Assembly: GCA_947630595.1 (NCBI GenBank) | Contig: CANRIG010000015.1 | Span: 1-48,179 of the forward strand | Length of the DNA stretch: 48,179 nt | Direction: 5' to 3' | From: an uncultured Lachnospiraceae bacterium | Lineage (GTDB): Bacteria; Bacillota; Clostridia; Lachnospirales; Lachnospiraceae | Part shown: positions 8,616-15,469 of the stretch, piece after piece | Layout of the letters: each line of letters opens with the position of its first letter | How positions within the stretch are numbered: position 1 is the stretch's first letter | The notes under the pieces: generated by a model | Database searches by the model: none | What the model was told of the DNA's origin: nothing | What the model saw: only the letters and a program-made list of their open reading frames with translations | Position numbers and translations under genes: made by a program

Positions 8616-8644
8616 TTGACGGTTTCTTTATCTTATGTTATCAT
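8616..8644 (+). promoter_or_regulatory. Promoter of the ATP-grasp operon
   Basis: TTGACG (8616-8621), a 17-base spacer and TATCAT (8639-8644), pointing at the ATP-grasp gene. The predicted start near 8651 lies just before a terminator-like hairpin. Confidence 0.6.
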
Positions 8645-8659
8645 GTTTTCCGTAATGCA

Positions 8660-8696
8660 GGCAAGGATGTCGGAAACGGCGTCCCTGCCTTTTTTT
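8660..8696 (+). terminator. Intrinsic terminator in the leader of the ATP-grasp operon
   Basis: GGCAAGGATGTC pairs imperfectly with GGCGTCCCTGCC around a GGAAAC loop, followed by eight Ts (8689-8696). It sits after the operon promoter and 26 bases before the first start codon. No other plus-strand gene upstream needs this terminator, so it may attenuate the operon. No antiterminator structure was recognised. Confidence 0.65.
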
Positions 8697-8722
8697 ATTC
8701 TGATTCCAAAGAGGTGATGTTT

Positions 8723-10036
8723 ATGCACGATATCTGCAGAGAAGCCGATGCCATCAACGAACAGCTCGCACGCTACGGCGTCAAATTCGGCATTTACAAA
8801 AACAACGTATTCAAGGAGCAGCTTTTCCCGTTTGACGCTATTCCGCGCATCATCGAAGCCGATGAATTTGCGTACCTGGAGCGCGGCCTCCGGCAGCGGG
8901 TGACGGCGCTCAACTGTTTTCTGGCGGATATTTATTCAGACAAAAAGATTGTCAAGGACGGCGTGATTCCGCCGGAATTCATTTATTCCTCCTCCGGCTA
9001 TCTGCCGCAGTGCGAGGGCGTGAAACCGCCCAAAAACATCGCCAGCCACATCTCCGGCATCGATCTGGTGCAGTCGCAGGACGGCACCTGGTACGTGCTG
9101 GAGGATAACCTGCGCGTGCCCTCCGGGGCCTCCTACCCGCTGATCGCGCGCGATCTCTGCCGCAGGGCCAGCCCGCGCACCTTCCGCGAACGCCGGATCG
9201 AGGACAACCGCAACTACGCCGGCCTGCTGAAGCAGGTGATGGACTACGTAAACACCGGCGGCGACAACGTGATCATGACGCCGGGGCGCTACAACGCGGC
9301 GTTTTTCGAGCACTCCTACCTGGCCGAGAAGACCGGGGCCGCCCTCGTGACCGGCAGCAACCTTTTCGTCGAAAACGACGTCCTGTACTATCTCGATTAC
9401 AGCGGGGAAAAGCGGCGCATCGGGGCGATTTACCGGCGCGTCTCCGACGAGTACCTCGACCCCATGAATTTCCTGCCGGAATCGCTGATCGGCGTGCCGC
9501 ACATGTTCGACGTGTTCCGCAAGGGGAACGTGGCCATCCTCAACGCGCCCGGGAACGGCGTCGCCGACGACAAGGGAATTTATTATTTTGTTCCCAAAAT
9601 GGTAAAATACTATCTGGACGAGGACTGCATCACCCGCAACGCGCCCACCTACCTGCCCTACTATGAGCAGGACCGCCGCTATGTGCTCGACCACCTCGGC
9701 GAGATCGTCATCAAGGACGTGGCGGAGGCCGGCGGCTACGGCGTGGTTTTCGGCAGCAAGCTCACCCGGCAGGAAAAAGAGGACATGGCCGCGCTGATTC
9801 AGAGCGAACCGCGCCGCTTCATCGCCCAGGATGTAATTGACTTTATCGACATCGACATCATGGAAAACGGCGAGCGCACGCCGCGCAAGGCCGACCTGCG
9901 CGCCTTCGTTTTAAGCGGTGAGGATGTCGTCGTCTGGAAAAGCGGGCTTACGCGGTTTTCGCGCGACCCCGATTCCTTTATCGTAAATTCTTCTCAGGGA
10001 GGAGGCTTCAAAGACACATGGGTATTATCACGGTAG
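8723..10036 (+). CDS. Circularly permuted ATP-grasp protein (CP_ATPgrasp_2, former DUF404/407)
   Basis: A 437-residue member of the circularly permuted ATP-grasp group, predicted to make amide bonds by activating a carboxylate with ATP. Conserved stretches include VLEDNLRVPSGASYP, IGAIYRRVSDEYLDP, APGNGVADDKGIYYFVP and KDVAEAGGYGVVFG, the last being the glycine-rich nucleotide loop. I chose the ATG at 8723 (MHDICREAD) because GAGG lies eight bases upstream; a GTG at 8714 overlaps that site. It is the first gene of a five-gene operon and overlaps the Alpha-E gene by 19 bases. The substrate is unknown; family predictions favour peptide or amino-acid ligation. Confidence 0.88.
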   Translation: MHDICREADAINEQLARYGVKFGIYKNNVFKEQLFPFDAIPRIIEADEFAYLERGLRQRVTALNCFLADIYSDKKIVKDGVIPPEFIYSSSGYLPQCEGVKPPKNIASHISGIDLVQSQDGTWYVLEDNLRVPSGASYPLIARDLCRRASPRTFRERRIEDNRNYAGLLKQVMDYVNTGGDNVIMTPGRYNAAFFEHSYLAEKTGAALVTGSNLFVENDVLYYLDYSGEKRRIGAIYRRVSDEYLDPMNFLPESLIGVPHMFDVFRKGNVAILNAPGNGVADDKGIYYFVPKMVKYYLDEDCITRNAPTYLPYYEQDRRYVLDHLGEIVIKDVAEAGGYGVVFGSKLTRQEKEDMAALIQSEPRRFIAQDVIDFIDIDIMENGERTPRKADLRAFVLSGEDVVVWKSGLTRFSRDPDSFIVNSSQGGGFKDTWVLSR

Positions 10037-10686
10037 AAAAAGCGGATCACCTGTTCTGGCTCGGCCGCTATTCGGAGCGGGTCTACACGACCCTGAAGCT
10101 CTACTGCGACGGCTACGACAGCATGATCGACCTCGACGACCAGTATCACAAAAAGCTCTGCGAGCTGCTCGACATTCCGGATATTTATGAGTCAAAGGAT
10201 GATTTTATCAGCCGCTACGGCTACGACAAGACCGATCCCAATTCCATCATCAGCAACCTGCTGCGCGCCTACGACAACGCGATCGTCATGCGCGACGAGA
10301 TCGGCACGGAGACGCTGGCCTATATCCAGATGGCGCTCTACGGCCTCGAGGCCGCGGCCTGCAGCGAGGCGCCCATGATCCGCATCCAGAAAGTGGTGGA
10401 CAATCTGCTGGCGTTCTGGGGCTGCGTGGACGACCAGATCGACGGGCGCTGCATCCGCGGCGTCATGAAATTCGGCAAGCGCGTGGAACGGCTCGACCTC
10501 TATCTCCGTTTCCAGCGCAGCCCGTCCGAGATCCGCCGCAACTATTCGCGGCTCGTCCCGCGCGCGGTTGAGAGCGGCATGCCATATAATAAGGAAGCGC
10601 TGGAACAGCTGAAGCAGACGATTCAGGCCCCCGTCATCGACTACGACGCGGCCCTGACCCAGTTAGGACGAATTTTAGATGTGTAA
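10018..10686 (+). CDS. Alpha-E domain protein (former DUF403)
   Basis: A 222-residue all-helical protein of the Alpha-E family. The diagnostic N-terminus ADHLFWLGRYSERVYTTLKL (residues 9-28) is present. Family length is about 300 in proteobacteria, so this is a short form. Its biochemical role is unknown, but it almost always travels with circularly permuted ATP-grasp and transglutaminase-like proteins, as here. The gene starts inside the ATP-grasp gene with a GGAGGAGG site and overlaps the next gene by eight bases, so translation is probably coupled. Assignment is confident; function is inferred only from context. Confidence 0.88.
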   Translation: MGIITVEKADHLFWLGRYSERVYTTLKLYCDGYDSMIDLDDQYHKKLCELLDIPDIYESKDDFISRYGYDKTDPNSIISNLLRAYDNAIVMRDEIGTETLAYIQMALYGLEAAACSEAPMIRIQKVVDNLLAFWGCVDDQIDGRCIRGVMKFGKRVERLDLYLRFQRSPSEIRRNYSRLVPRAVESGMPYNKEALEQLKQTIQAPVIDYDAALTQLGRILDV

Positions 10687-11479
10687 AACCATTCTTTCAT
10701 TTTCATATGAAATGCGGTCGGAATTTGACCGCGATATCACGCGCCACGACTTCCGGCTCATGTGCATCCCGCGCGGCAGCCTGCGGCAGAGGGTGCTGCG
10801 CGCCGTCTGCGAGGTGTCGCCCTACACGTGGCTGTCCGAGGACTGCGACGGCTTCGGCAATCCCTACGTTTACGGGGCGGCGGGCGATCATCACAGGCTG
10901 TTTCACGTGCGTGTTTCCGGGCAGGTGCAGACGGGCCTTGCCGATTTTGAGGAATACGCCTCCGAAAACGACGGCCTCTTTCGCTTTCCGTCGCCGATGA
11001 CCGTGCCCGGCCCGAAGATCACACATTATTTTGGACGGCTGCGCCCGCCTGACGAAGCCGGGACGCCCCTGGCGCGGGCACGCTTTTATATGGAACAGCT
11101 TCACCGCGATTTTTCGTACCGCAGCGGCGTGACCGACACCGCGACCACCGCAGAACAGGCGCTCGCCCAGGGCTGCGGCGTCTGTCAGGACTTCGCGCAC
11201 CTGCTGACCGCCCTCTGCCGGCTGGACGGGATTCCGGCCCGCTACGCGGCGGGCATGCTGACCGGCGAGGGGCAAACGCACGCCTGGACGGAAGTGCTCT
11301 CGGGCGGCCGCTGGTACGGCCTCGACCCCACGCACGGGCGCGCCGTCGACTGCAATTACATCAAGCTGTCCCACGGGCGCGACTGCCGCGACTGCCTCGT
11401 CAACCGCGGCCTCTACTGCAATCCCGCGCGGGAGACGCAGCGCATCCGCGCCAGCGTCGCCGTGCTGCCGCCGGCGTAA
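10679..11479 (+). CDS. Transglutaminase-like cysteine protease/transferase
   Basis: A 266-residue protein. Residues 1-110 look like the bacterial transglutaminase N-terminal beta domain and residues 130-230 like the papain-like core. The triad is visible: Cys169 in GCGVCQDFAH, His201 in THAWTEV and Asp216 in LDPTHG. Such proteins cut or form amide bonds. It lies in an operon with an ATP-grasp ligase and two aspartoacylase-like proteins and starts within the Alpha-E gene. A second cysteine (166) precedes the catalytic one, and a cysteine-rich tail (235-247) may bind metal. No signal peptide is evident, so it probably acts in the cytosol. Confidence 0.87.
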   Translation: MCKTILSFSYEMRSEFDRDITRHDFRLMCIPRGSLRQRVLRAVCEVSPYTWLSEDCDGFGNPYVYGAAGDHHRLFHVRVSGQVQTGLADFEEYASENDGLFRFPSPMTVPGPKITHYFGRLRPPDEAGTPLARARFYMEQLHRDFSYRSGVTDTATTAEQALAQGCGVCQDFAHLLTALCRLDGIPARYAAGMLTGEGQTHAWTEVLSGGRWYGLDPTHGRAVDCNYIKLSHGRDCRDCLVNRGLYCNPARETQRIRASVAVLPPA

Positions 11480-11535
11480 TCCGCCCGGCGCATCAAAACG
11501 CATCATTCCAAACGTATGCATAAGGAGACATTCAG

Positions 11536-12453
11536 ATGATAGAAACCGTAACCAAAATTGACCTGCCTGTGGACGAATCGCTCCGCATCGTGAAAAACCG
11601 CATTCAGGCGGGGAAAGGAAAGCGCATCAGCATCGTCACCGGTACCCACGGCGACGAGCTCGAGGGGCAGGCCGTCTGCTTTGAGGTCGGCAAACGCCTG
11701 CGCGAACAGCCCGGCTGCCTGAACGGCACCGTGGACATTTATCCGGCCCTGAACCCGCTCGGCATCGATTCCATCACCCGCGGCATTCCGGGCTTCGACC
11801 TCGACATGAACCGCATTTTTCCCGGCTCCGAGGACGGGGCGATGACGGAGTACATGGCCTCGCGCATTGTCGGCGACATCGCCGGCAGCGACGTCTGCAT
11901 CGACATCCACGCCAGCAATATTTTCCTGCGCGAAATCCCGCAGGCCCGCATCAACACCCACACGGCGCAGCAGCTTGTGCCGATGGCGGAATTTTTAAAC
12001 CTTGACTTTGTCTGGGTGCACGCGGCGGCGACCGTGCTTGAATCGACGCTCGCGCACTCCTTAAACAGCGCCGGGACGCCGACGCTGGTGGTGGAGATGG
12101 GCGTGGGCATGCGCATCACGCGCGATTACTGCCGGCAGCTCGCCGACGGCATTTTCTGTCTGATGCACCGCATGGGCATCTGGACCGGAGAGGTGATCGC
12201 GCCGAAAAAGCCGATCATATCGACCGACGGTCAGGTGCAGTTTATCAACGCGGCGGCCTCGGGCATTTTCATCCCGCAGGTGGAGCACACCACGCAGGTC
12301 TGCCGCGGCGATTACATCGGCGACATCGTCAGCCCGCTGACCGGCATCGTCGTCGACCGCATTCTCTCGCCCTGCGACGGCATGGTGTTTACGCTGCGCG
12401 AATACCCGGTGGTCGACGAGGGCTCGCTGATCGCAAGAATACTGGAGGTGTAA
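11536..12453 (+). CDS. M14-type succinylglutamate desuccinylase/aspartoacylase family protein (intact active site)
   Basis: A 305-residue zinc amidohydrolase of the AstE/AspA branch of the M14 carboxypeptidase fold, predicted to hydrolyse an acyl-amino acid or peptide amide. The zinc ligands are visible: His38 and Glu41 in GTHGDE, and His125 in DIHAS. The likely general base is Glu187 in VVEMGVG. The tail (residues 230-305) is a beta-rich lipoyl/barrel-like domain (GDYIGDIVSPLTG). The ATG has AAGGAG about nine bases upstream. It lies 56 bases behind the transglutaminase-like gene and three bases before a degenerate paralogue. Confidence 0.87.
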   Translation: MIETVTKIDLPVDESLRIVKNRIQAGKGKRISIVTGTHGDELEGQAVCFEVGKRLREQPGCLNGTVDIYPALNPLGIDSITRGIPGFDLDMNRIFPGSEDGAMTEYMASRIVGDIAGSDVCIDIHASNIFLREIPQARINTHTAQQLVPMAEFLNLDFVWVHAAATVLESTLAHSLNSAGTPTLVVEMGVGMRITRDYCRQLADGIFCLMHRMGIWTGEVIAPKKPIISTDGQVQFINAAASGIFIPQVEHTTQVCRGDYIGDIVSPLTGIVVDRILSPCDGMVFTLREYPVVDEGSLIARILEV

Positions 12454-12456
12454 GGC

Positions 12457-13389
12457 ATGAAACGCAAAATTATCTTTGAACTGAAATCGCTCTACCGCGA
12501 CAGCTTCCGCGTCACCGGCTTTCTGTTCGGACACGGGGAAAAATCCGCCTGCATCGTGGGCGCGCTGCGCGGCAACGAGGTCCAGCAGCTTTACACCTGC
12601 TCGCAGCTCGTAAAAACGCTCAAGCGGCTGGAGGCCGAGGGCCGCATCTGCGACGGCAAATCCATCCTCGTCGTTCCCTCCGTCAACACCTATTCCATGA
12701 ACATCAAAAAGCGCTTCTGGCCCACCGACAACACGGACATCAACCGCATGTTTCCCGGCTACGATCTCGGCGAGACGACGCAGCGCATCGCCGCCGGGCT
12801 TTTTGAGGAAATCAAAGACTACAAAAACGGCATCCAGTTTGCGAGCTTTTACATCCCGGGCGTTTTTGTGCCGCACGTGCGCATCATGAAAACCGGCTAT
12901 GAAAACGTCGATATGGCGCGCGAATTCGGCCTTCCCTACATCGTCCTGCGCCAGCCGCGGCCCTACGACACGACCACGCTCAACTACAACTGGCAGGTCT
13001 GGGAATCGCACGCCTTTTCCGTCTACGCCGGAACCACCGACACCATCAACCATGACGACGTCACCCTGGCCGTGAACGCCGTGCTCAATTTTCTGCGCAA
13101 GGAGGGCATCATCCGCAGCTCCGGCTTCGTGCATGAGGGCTACATCGCCAGCGTGGTCGCCGAGAATGAGCTCGTAAACGTGCAGACGGGCGCGGCCGGC
13201 ATCATCGACCGCTTCGTGCAGCCCGGCGCCAACGTGGTGCGCGGCGACCTGCTCTCGCGCGTCCTCGACCCGTACGACGGAAGCGTCCGCTCGGAGATTC
13301 TCTCTCCGACCGACGGCGTCGTCTTCTTTGTGCAGGAGGAGCCGCTGGTGTACGCGAACGCCTCCGTGTATAAAATTATCCGGGAGTAA
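12457..13389 (+). CDS. Degenerate M14 aspartoacylase-like paralogue, probable pseudoenzyme
   Basis: A 310-residue paralogue of the preceding gene. Aligned without gaps at the first motif, GTHGDE becomes GALRGNE, so His38 is replaced by Arg38 while Glu41 remains. DIHAS becomes IQFAS, replacing the second zinc His by Phe128. The catalytic Glu region VVEMGVG becomes SVYAGTT. The NRMFPG motif (96-101) and the C-terminal beta domain (GDLLSRVLDPYDG) are kept. The frame is intact and the protein is well conserved in shape, so it looks like a regulatory or binding partner of the active paralogue, not a decaying gene. Start: ATG, with GGAGG overlapping the previous stop. Confidence 0.85.
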   Translation: MKRKIIFELKSLYRDSFRVTGFLFGHGEKSACIVGALRGNEVQQLYTCSQLVKTLKRLEAEGRICDGKSILVVPSVNTYSMNIKKRFWPTDNTDINRMFPGYDLGETTQRIAAGLFEEIKDYKNGIQFASFYIPGVFVPHVRIMKTGYENVDMAREFGLPYIVLRQPRPYDTTTLNYNWQVWESHAFSVYAGTTDTINHDDVTLAVNAVLNFLRKEGIIRSSGFVHEGYIASVVAENELVNVQTGAAGIIDRFVQPGANVVRGDLLSRVLDPYDGSVRSEILSPTDGVVFFVQEEPLVYANASVYKIIRE

Positions 13390-13535: not shown

Positions 13536-14021
13536 GTGACAAAAGAACAGTTGGGAGCGCTGATCCTTGATTCGGAGCGGCAGTTGTACTCGACCGCCAA
13601 AAGCATTCTGTGCAGCGACCAGGATTGTGCGGACGCCATTCAGGAGACGATTGTGAGGGCATTTTCTAGGATTGACACGCTGAGAAATGACAAATACGCC
13701 AAAACCTGGCTGATCCGCATCCTGATGAACGAATGCCGCACCCTCCAGCGAAAGTCGGGCAGATTCCTCTCCCTGGAAAATCTGGGCGGGCGGCCGGAGA
13801 CGGCGGCGGAACAGGAAGCGGATTACAGCGACCTGTACAGGGCTTTGCATGCTCTGAAAGAGGAACTGCGGCTTCCGGTTATTCTGTACTACATCGAGGA
13901 TTTCAGCGTAAGGGAAATTGCGCAGATTCTTGAGATAAGCGAGGGCGCCGTGCAGAAACGGCTTGCCCGGGCGCGGCGGAAGCTCAGGTACGATCTGCAG
14001 GAAAGAGAGGCGTTGATATGA
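13536..14021 (+). CDS. ECF-type RNA polymerase sigma factor
   Basis: A 161-residue sigma-70 family protein with only regions 2 and 4. Region 2 includes DCADAIQETIVRAF (residues 31-44) and region 2.4 YAKTWLIRILMNE. Region 4 is the helix-turn-helix FSVREIAQILEISEGAVQKR (residues 125-144). It directs RNA polymerase to a stress or envelope regulon that cannot be named from sequence. The start is GTG, with AAAGGTGG just upstream. Its stop overlaps the start of the next gene (ATGA), so a membrane-anchored regulator is translationally coupled to it. Confidence 0.9.
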   Translation: MTKEQLGALILDSERQLYSTAKSILCSDQDCADAIQETIVRAFSRIDTLRNDKYAKTWLIRILMNECRTLQRKSGRFLSLENLGGRPETAAEQEADYSDLYRALHALKEELRLPVILYYIEDFSVREIAQILEISEGAVQKRLARARRKLRYDLQEREALI

Positions 14022-15469
14022 GACTGGAAAATATGAAAGAAAATATCCCCGAAACTCCGGAATTTATCCACAGGATGATTCAGGATGAAGTGAAAAACCA
14101 GATGCAGGCTGCAAAGGTGATTTCCCTGCAGGCCCGCAAAAGAAACCGCCGGACCGGCGCAAGGCTGGCGGCTGCGGCGGCATGCGTGCTGGCCGTATCC
14201 ACCGTAGGCTACGCCGGCGCAAAGCTGTACCATATGTCTCTGGAAAGCGAGGGAGCCTACCGCATCGCGGCCGGCATCAGCGCGGACGGCAGCCCCGGAA
14301 AAACCAGCCTTCCGAAAAAAATGCACGGGATCGATATCTCCGCGGACTACATCCCGGAGGGCATGGAATGGCTCGATGAGTCGCATCTGACCTACCCGGA
14401 AAACGGCTGGAGCGGCGGATTCAGTTTCTCGTCGGTGCTTCTGGACACGGACGATCTGGACAAAGTTCTGGAAGAGAATAACGTCGTCGAGAGCGAGGAA
14501 AGGACGTTCGGCAGCTACGGAGGCGTATACCTCCGCTACCATGACCTCGCGCAGGACGGCTCGTTCAATCAGCGGATTTATCTGCTTTGCCCGGATATCT
14601 CCCGCGTCATTACCATTTACATCGGCGACGACGTCACGAAGGAGGACGCCGTAAAGGTGGCCGAACACCTTGTCATCACCGAAACCGACGACCTGTTTGA
14701 TACGGATGCCATGACTACCTGGAGCGAGCTTGTGGGATCGGAGACGGAGCGGTCGGCATCCCACGACACGCTGACCGTCTCCGCCGCGGAACACGAACTG
14801 ACGGTGCATCCGATCGGCGAGGATTTTGTCCTGCCTGCAATGCATACGGACGAAAACGGCGGTTTCGTGCCGGCCGAGCAGGTTACGGTGCGCGTGGATT
14901 CCGTCCAGACGTCGGACGATCTTCATCTGCTCGACGGAATGGAACTGCCGCAGGAATGGGAGGATGCAATCGGCGGCGACGGAAAGCTGATGGACAATAC
15001 CCTGTCCTATATCCGCTCCGGCGACGGCGTCGATACGCTGGACGAGGTGGTAAAGACTGAAACCGTGAAGCAGAAGCTCGTCTTTGCGACCGTCACCTAT
15101 ACCAACCATTCCGACGGGGAGCTCCGTCACATGCTTTACCGCGGTATGCTGGTACTGATGAATCAGGAAGACGGCGGCTATCAGATTTACAACCCGCGGG
15201 AGCGCTCCGGCGACGGCTATGACCGCGTCATGTGGGACGGCGCGGCGGATACGGGCGCCATGACTTGGAGCAGCGTGCTGGATGATTTCGAAGATGGAGG
15301 AAACTACATTCCTTCCCTGAAGCCCGGCGAGAGCATTCAGCTGAATATGGCATGGCTCGTCAATGAAAACGACCTGCCGCATATGTACCTTGCGCTCAAC
15401 GGCGACGGTTCGGCGTATGCGTTCACGGATTCCATGCTGGAAACGGGGCTGGTGGATATTCGGCAGTGA
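14018..15469 (+). CDS. Membrane-anchored sigma-factor partner (probable anti-sigma factor)
   Basis: A 483-residue protein with one membrane segment (about residues 48-66). A short cytosolic part (1-47) precedes it and a large extracytoplasmic domain follows. The cytosolic tail is rich in charged residues (FIHRMIQDEVKNQ). The outer domain has a DUF4367-like first half, with PEGMEW and RYHDLAQDGSFNQRIYLL, and a second beta-rich half that I do not recognise. Its position, with an ATGA overlap behind an ECF sigma gene, indicates a sensor or anti-sigma factor. The pair shares the terminator at 15513-15557. Confidence 0.72.
   Translation: MRLENMKENIPETPEFIHRMIQDEVKNQMQAAKVISLQARKRNRRTGARLAAAAACVLAVSTVGYAGAKLYHMSLESEGAYRIAAGISADGSPGKTSLPKKMHGIDISADYIPEGMEWLDESHLTYPENGWSGGFSFSSVLLDTDDLDKVLEENNVVESEERTFGSYGGVYLRYHDLAQDGSFNQRIYLLCPDISRVITIYIGDDVTKEDAVKVAEHLVITETDDLFDTDAMTTWSELVGSETERSASHDTLTVSAAEHELTVHPIGEDFVLPAMHTDENGGFVPAEQVTVRVDSVQTSDDLHLLDGMELPQEWEDAIGGDGKLMDNTLSYIRSGDGVDTLDEVVKTETVKQKLVFATVTYTNHSDGELRHMLYRGMLVLMNQEDGGYQIYNPRERSGDGYDRVMWDGAADTGAMTWSSVLDDFEDGGNYIPSLKPGESIQLNMAWLVNENDLPHMYLALNGDGSAYAFTDSMLETGLVDIRQ

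Follow-up and report, generated by a model that had tools for sequence, protein, structure and literature searches.

A candidate nitrogen-regulated amide make-and-break operon with a putative ANTAR-type leader attenuator in Lachnospiraceae

Adjacent genes for an ATP-grasp protein, an Alpha-E protein and a transglutaminase-like protein are predicted to encode a peptide-ligation system (Iyer et al. 2009) that is seen in the Anbu operon (PMC6376114, PMC5666114). The product and purpose of this module are not named in the literature consulted here, and phosphate release is reported for the ATP-grasp homolog from Yersinia (PMC6376114). In Burkholderia cenocepacia, a cluster of DUF404/407, DUF403 and transglutaminase genes belongs to the NtrC regulon and is under NtrC/sigma54 control (PMC5491218), and in marine metagenomes the same domains associate with urea domains (PMC3597751). 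With respect to regulation, the closest described systems are the ANTAR antiterminators, the targets of which are hairpins with six-base A1/G4 loops (hexaloops) overlapping a terminator; the known regulons consist mostly of nitrogen genes (PMC3369931, PMC3369936), and the described sites carry two such hairpins. The locus analyzed here comes from an uncultured Lachnospiraceae bacterium and lies in a window of 48,179 nt (the whole stretch of contig CANRIG010000015.1 from assembly GCA_947630595.1 that was analyzed, to which all coordinates refer unless a locus is named). It consists of a compact leader followed by genes for a circularly permuted ATP-grasp protein, an Alpha-E protein, a transglutaminase-like protein and two paralogous proteins of the M14 family, M14a and M14b (Table 1).

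The strongest functional clue to this operon is the proposed attenuator in its leader, which points to nitrogen control. Because the leader is shared with glutamine synthetase, amtB and other nitrogen genes, and because an ANTAR gene lies behind the glutamine synthetase gene, the operon very probably belongs to a nitrogen regulon. The best explanation of the five genes is a nitrogen-regulated module that makes and breaks an amide, a reading that appears almost, although not quite, as probable as all others together. A first-pass annotation of this DNA had placed five plus-strand genes behind one promoter, two of their junctions overlapping by 19 and 8 bases and two leaving gaps of 56 and 3 bases. 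The list of open reading frames (ORFs) agrees with this layout, Pfam searches return the same five family assignments, and a promoter-like site is indeed present, but the terminator hairpin that precedes the first gene was absent from that annotation.

To characterize the leader, the 98 intact loci among the relatives described below were reduced to 95 with enough upstream sequence and to 90 after removal of near-copies; the control consisted of 200 sequences upstream of neighboring ORFs of at least 200 amino acids (aa), not all of which are real genes. Of the 90 operon leaders, 64 carry a terminator hairpin at -15 kcal/mol or lower, vs 19 of the 200 controls; 44 of these 64 leaders and 2 of the 19 controls have a promoter with at least 9 of 12 consensus matches that ends immediately ahead of the hairpin. 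In an alignment of 38 hairpins of the commonest type, picked from 65 by shared sequence, 98.4% of the stem cells pair and 73 cells show double changes, compared with 15.8 after shuffling. The 5' arm can adopt an alternative hairpin with an A1/G4 hexaloop in 47 of the 65 leaders of relatives; the runner-up letter pair, G/G, occurs in 11, and dinucleotide shuffles produce A1/G4 in 3.9 leaders on average and in 8 at most. The small stem of this hairpin covaries as well (12 double-change cells vs 3.1). Taken together, most operon leaders bear the signature of ANTAR antitermination and are probably contacted by an ANTAR protein.

A covariance model, R1, was built on the 38 aligned hairpins; it favors the loop letters and does not model the small stem. 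R1 places the leader before the ATP-grasp gene in 21 of 47 loci outside the training set (E-value 0.02 or better), three of which are operon remnants, and before each part of the split operon in locus L092. In 15 operon-carrying genomes, R1 yields at least 67 matches at E 0.01 (150 candidates were scored per genome, so that match counts are lower bounds), and the operon leader is among the matches in 10 genomes, six of these leaders being training rows. The 30 R1 loci read in these genomes include nine operon leaders, five GS-III genes, seven ammonium transporter genes (amtB), two amino-acid ABC transporters, one purF gene, and six other or unclear cases; the hexaloop is present at all 15 nitrogen or glutamine loci vs one of the six others. 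Among 12 genomes of the family without an ATP-grasp match, 11 contain R1 matches at E 0.001, and 17 of the 26 loci belong to nitrogen or glutamine genes (GS-III, 6; amtB/glnK, 4; pyrG, 3; glnA, 2; carA, 1; amino-acid binding protein, 1), with the hexaloop in 16 of these 17 vs four of the other nine. Two GS-III, three AmtB and two GlnK proteins, PyrG, CarA, a PurF-like protein and amino-acid transporter proteins were checked against Pfam; for the remaining regulon genes, names come from tblastn similarity to these proteins or from inspection by eye. Of 16 genomes, 15 contain an ANTAR gene, including that of the window (one copy in 14, two in one), and this gene directly follows a glutamine synthetase gene at all 10 loci read (the synthetase was Pfam-checked in two). 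A search of Rfam returned no match above chance for the leader of the window or for six R1-type loci. In Lachnospiraceae, the compact leader thus appears to be a hallmark of a regulon of nitrogen and glutamine genes.

Leaders of this kind were also noticed elsewhere. The compact arrangement of promoter, hexaloop and terminator is found before GS-III, amtB, glnK, glnA, purF, pyrG and carA (e.g., L202, L195, L254, L263, L274). In L138 (13248-13298) and L149 (12860-12906), which are the same sites as L207 and L201, respectively, the operon is preceded by an amino-acid ABC transporter with an R1-type leader of its own; a third such leader in L092 (7086-7139) precedes a gene for an isochorismatase-family hydrolase beside the split operon, and further R1 matches lie upstream in L105, L109, L122, L087 and L096.

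The leader of the window has the architecture of the family, although its sequence has diverged too far to be detected with R1, the family-wide model. Its A1/G4 hexaloop is found at the same place in all six close relatives (L045 to L049 and L051; ATP-grasp proteins 83 to 90% identical). A second model, R2, made from a genus alignment (A10) of seven rows that include the window and two more of the searched genomes, identifies five operon leaders and two other sites in five genus genomes. In the genome of the window, the single ANTAR gene follows glnA, and this glnA is itself preceded by a similar leader of promoter and terminator in which loop position 1 is G rather than A; this is the best R1 match of that genome (E 0.009).

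The five-gene block is strongly conserved as a unit. A scan of public genome contigs confirmed at least 563 relatives, the best 80 of which were taken as loci; these, 20 genus loci and 36 family and class loci form three sets that overlap in part, so that the counts are not additive. In a neighborhood survey set beforehand, the association of the M14 pair with the other three genes was borne out: all five genes are present in 72 of the best 80 public loci (a few are cut or in two frames) and in 26 of the 36 family and class loci (three cut by contig ends, seven fragments only), and the pair is seen in 16 of the 20 genus loci, the other four being cut by contig ends. Five of the other eight public loci reach a contig end (L050, L059, L063, L073, L074), and L072 extends merely 268 bases beyond the transglutaminase gene. 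The block also occurs in four families of the class beyond Lachnospiraceae (f26, f33, f60, f77) and, up to a contig end inside M14a, in f68 (L129). A single-sequence search finds the ATP-grasp protein in 20 of 36 genus genomes, including that of the window, and in none of 24 genomes that represent the other families of the order, and a profile of this protein (A1) matches 30 of 200 Lachnospiraceae genomes (more than 90% complete) and 9 of 293 genomes drawn from the class. The match is near full-length in 23 of the 200 family genomes, all 23 of which encode M14b. The closest named relatives are metagenome-assembled genomes of uncultured Lachnospiraceae; carriers in culture include Butyrivibrio fibrisolvens 16/4 (L099), Butyrivibrio sp. 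X503 and Eubacterium plexicaudatum ASF492. In L141, L143 and L145, an ATP-grasp fragment is joined to an M14b fragment, so that the block has been lost there as a unit.

At 7623-8056 of L141, the first ~77 ATP-grasp codons run on into the final ~30 of M14b as a single open frame, the product of a deletion, and the leader of R1 type persists. The frame of the ATP-grasp gene is broken in G012 and G014 (L042, L043), at the same place in both, and in G008 (L044), which represents either real decay or assembly error.

The CP_ATPgrasp_2, Alpha-E and transglutaminase genes adjoin in the order that defines the predicted peptide-ligation module, and amide formation by the ATP-grasp module is predicted from the family. 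The ATP-grasp protein aligns with 3n6x over nearly its whole length, and K331, GGYG, EDNLRVPSG and KADLR, which we take to be the ATP-grasp motifs, with roles assumed from the family, are invariant in 10 of 10 sequences; the residues expected of an active ligase thus appear to be kept, at the level of sequence. The window Alpha-E protein covers only positions 6-172 of the 294 in the Pfam model, and such short frames are typical (median 222 aa over 101 frames from intact loci). The Cys-His-Asp triad of the transglutaminase-like protein, described as intact in the first-pass annotation, is invariant in all six aligned genus sequences. The call of one active and one inactive M14 protein also holds at the level of residues. 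His38 and Glu41 of the HxxE motif, the second histidine His125, and the catalytic Glu187 are retained in all 99 operon M14a sequences, whereas all 126 M14b sequences (operon and stand-alone) have arginine at position 38 and none has histidine at the place of the second zinc ligand, two carrying one two places earlier. M14b, ~23% identical to the adjacent M14a, retains the AstE/AspA M14 fold. Anbu was not found as the fourth gene at the locus, where the next genes encode the two M14 proteins and a sigma factor; the M14 pair thus takes the position of Anbu and would form the arm that breaks the amide.

These features are compatible with the following mechanism. When nitrogen is short, the ANTAR regulator encoded behind glnA would bind the hexaloop hairpin of the nascent leader and prevent formation of the terminator, allowing RNA polymerase to read the five genes; leader and regulon emerge from the comparison of sequences, and from these we infer the ANTAR contact and the direction of the switch. 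The ATP-grasp protein, with Alpha-E as a partner, would couple a carboxylate and an amine at the expense of ATP, as suggested by its family, and the transglutaminase-like protein may work on the same product. Hydrolysis of the amide would fall to the M14 pair: M14a would be the zinc enzyme, and M14b, to judge from its conserved residues, is a probable non-catalytic partner that binds the ligand or steers specificity. The net role would most likely be capture and recycling of amine or amino-acid nitrogen via a transient amide, by analogy with the gamma-glutamylation routes for amine use. This explanation is preferred because of the leader and the independent nitrogen links, namely NtrC in B. 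cenocepacia and the urea domains in marine metagenomes. The make-and-break cycle for an amide product proposed in the first-pass annotation remains the best reading because the adjacency of the M14 pair and the ATP-grasp motifs held up; the peptide tag suggested there as a product found no support.

Several observations weigh against the make-and-break explanation. The hairpin is absent at the -15 kcal/mol cut in 26 of the 90 operon leaders, the A1/G4 loop is missing in 18 of the 65, and a second hexaloop hairpin upstream is found in one of the 65 (shuffles, mean 2.8). In five of the 15 operon genomes, the R1 matches do not include the operon leader, and one operon genome (G227) yields no ANTAR match. 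R1 misses the leader of the window, and none of the R2 sites in the five genus genomes could be tied to a nitrogen gene, so that the assignment of this genome to the regulon rests on architecture and kinship. In L090, the first three genes are present, and 6.5 kb of sequence holds no M14 gene; in L092, the ATP-grasp gene is 5 kb from the Alpha-E and transglutaminase genes, and the further 1.3 kb that was read lacks an M14 gene. The M14 pair follows the three genes but is also found in the absence of a matching ATP-grasp protein: of 48 Lachnospiraceae genomes in which M14b matches strongly, this is the case in 22, and purL is downstream in 17 of 33 loci read around stand-alone or second M14b copies; thus, the substrate of the M14 proteins need not be the product of the ATP-grasp protein. 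The substrate and chemistry assigned to all five proteins are predictions from their families.

In these 17 loci (L161-L190), the stand-alone M14a/M14b pairs are on the same strand as the downstream purL, and in 14 of the 17 within 300 bases of it. Some copies of purL-linked M14a lack zinc-site residues.

Among the alternatives, the one that survives best, although it is unlikely, holds that the M14 pair works in the salvage of amino acids and shares nothing but transcription with the three upstream genes, which would have a separate function. The existence of solitary pairs, of an intact pair behind an Alpha-E remnant in L172, and of the three genes alone in L090 fits this view, whereas the operon-type M14b forms nearly one branch apart from stand-alone M14b (40 of 41 sampled) and keeps Trp182 in 95 of 95 sequences, and the catalytic residues that never vary in operon M14a contrast with the loss of His38 in 5 of 16 purL-linked copies, all of which suggests a specialized operon form. 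Somewhat less probable is nitrogen storage, in which a cyanophycin-like reserve of isopeptides would be built by the ATP-grasp protein and its dipeptides split to amino acids by M14a in the manner of CphZ: no cyanophycin synthetase scores above the curated cut-off in any of the 16 operon genomes, and DoeB, 3na6 and 3cdx match the M14b fold equally well and are closer to M14a in sequence than CphZ is. Protein tagging, in which M14a would take off a peptide or amino acid that the ATP-grasp protein or the transglutaminase had attached to a protein, is still harder to credit. The substrates of AstE/AspA-type enzymes are small N-acyl amino acids, and no neighboring gene of at least 70 aa recurs in more than 21 of the 98 intact loci (shorter ORFs, such as a gene for a tag peptide, fall outside this count); these points argue against a mechanism that has nonetheless been proposed for the ATP-grasp/alphaE/transglutaminase/Anbu operon (PMC6376114, PMC5666114) and has a parallel in RimK, which adds glutamate to a ribosomal protein (PMC12239564). 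The least probable alternative, that the leader hairpin simply ends transcription from upstream or is of a generic kind, draws on R1 matches that resemble plain terminators with no gene behind them (L214, L217, L223) and is hard to square with the promoter immediately ahead of the hairpin, the hexaloop letters, and the recurrence of the leader before GS-III, amtB, glnK, glnA, purF and pyrG.

The make-and-break reading can be extended, although this is less likely than not, to an unrecognized nitrogen-assimilation route of Lachnospiraceae, in which an ATP-grasp/Alpha-E ligase would turn an amine or amino acid into a transient isopeptide or acyl-amide, a heteromeric complex of the M14 enzyme and pseudoenzyme would free the nitrogen, and a single-hexaloop ANTAR attenuator would define a family-wide regulon outside Rfam. 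An RNA switch shared with glutamine synthetase and an ammonium transporter would indicate when the system is used and therefore the condition under which to seek its product. The variant in which a hydrolase pair apparently replaces Anbu is widespread in gut Firmicutes and would tie an uncharacterized enzyme family to nitrogen supply. As an RNA element for which genomes can be searched, the leader also seems to flag the nitrogen regulon of the Lachnospiraceae, one of the major bacterial families of the gut.

Table 1. Features of the operon and its leader in the 48,179-nt window
Feature	Coordinates	Strand	Remarks
Promoter TTGACG-17-TATCAT	8616..8644	+	10/12 consensus matches
Leader terminator, proposed attenuator	8659..8696	+	stem 8659-8690, -21.6 kcal/mol, then T run
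Mini-hairpin GGC[AAGGAT]GTC, A1/G4 hexaloop, proposed ANTAR site	8660..8671	+	alternative fold inside the 5' arm of the terminator
Shine-Dalgarno sequence AGAGGTGATG	8710..8719	+	precedes ATG 8723
Circularly permuted ATP-grasp protein (PF14403/PF04174)	8723..10036	+	Pfam CP_ATPgrasp_2, 446 bits
Alpha-E protein, short form, 222 aa	10018..10686	+	Pfam Alpha-E, 69 bits
Transglutaminase-like protein, Cys169-His201-Asp216	10679..11479	+	Pfam Transglut_core, 73 bits, and Bact_transglu_N
M14a, AstE/AspA-type M14 hydrolase, complete zinc site and catalytic Glu	11536..12453	+	Pfam AstE_AspA_cat, 78 bits
M14b, pseudoenzyme paralog of M14a without either zinc His, conserved pocket residues	12457..13389	+	Pfam AstE_AspA_cat, 43 bits

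The ATP-grasp gene most likely starts at the ATG given in Table 1 because the GTG at 8714 sits within the Shine-Dalgarno sequence. An extracytoplasmic function (ECF) sigma factor gene begins at 13536, 146 bases past M14b, and is followed by a gene for a 483 aa protein without a Pfam family, possibly its anti-sigma partner (13536-15469 together). Upstream of the block, a gene for an EamA transporter is located on the opposite strand.

The window operon shares its first three families and their order with the Anbu operon, proteobacterial versions of which are reported to show nitrogen-linked expression; it differs in the M14 active/inactive pair that occupies the place of Anbu, in the short form of Alpha-E, and in the presence of a leader attenuator. 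RimK/RimB and RloABC have an aspartic peptidase where the window operon has M14 proteins, and their ATP-grasp type is presumably different. The make-and-break logic of an ATP-grasp protein combined with a hydrolase is similar (PMC12239564). Among AstE/AspA-type M14 deacylases (DoeB/EutE, aspartoacylase, CphZ), the zinc ligands and catalytic Glu are common to M14a and the fold is common to M14b, whereas the window operon encodes two adjacent paralogs, one of them an invariant pseudoenzyme. With the ANTAR regulons (EutV, NasR and the nitrogen regulons of Ramesh et al. 2012, PMC3369931), the operon leaders share the A1/G4 hexaloop over a leader terminator, and the nitrogen genes and the ANTAR gene behind glutamine synthetase are likewise in common; in contrast to the two hairpins of the ANTAR leaders described there, the operon leader has a single hexaloop hairpin directly after the promoter.

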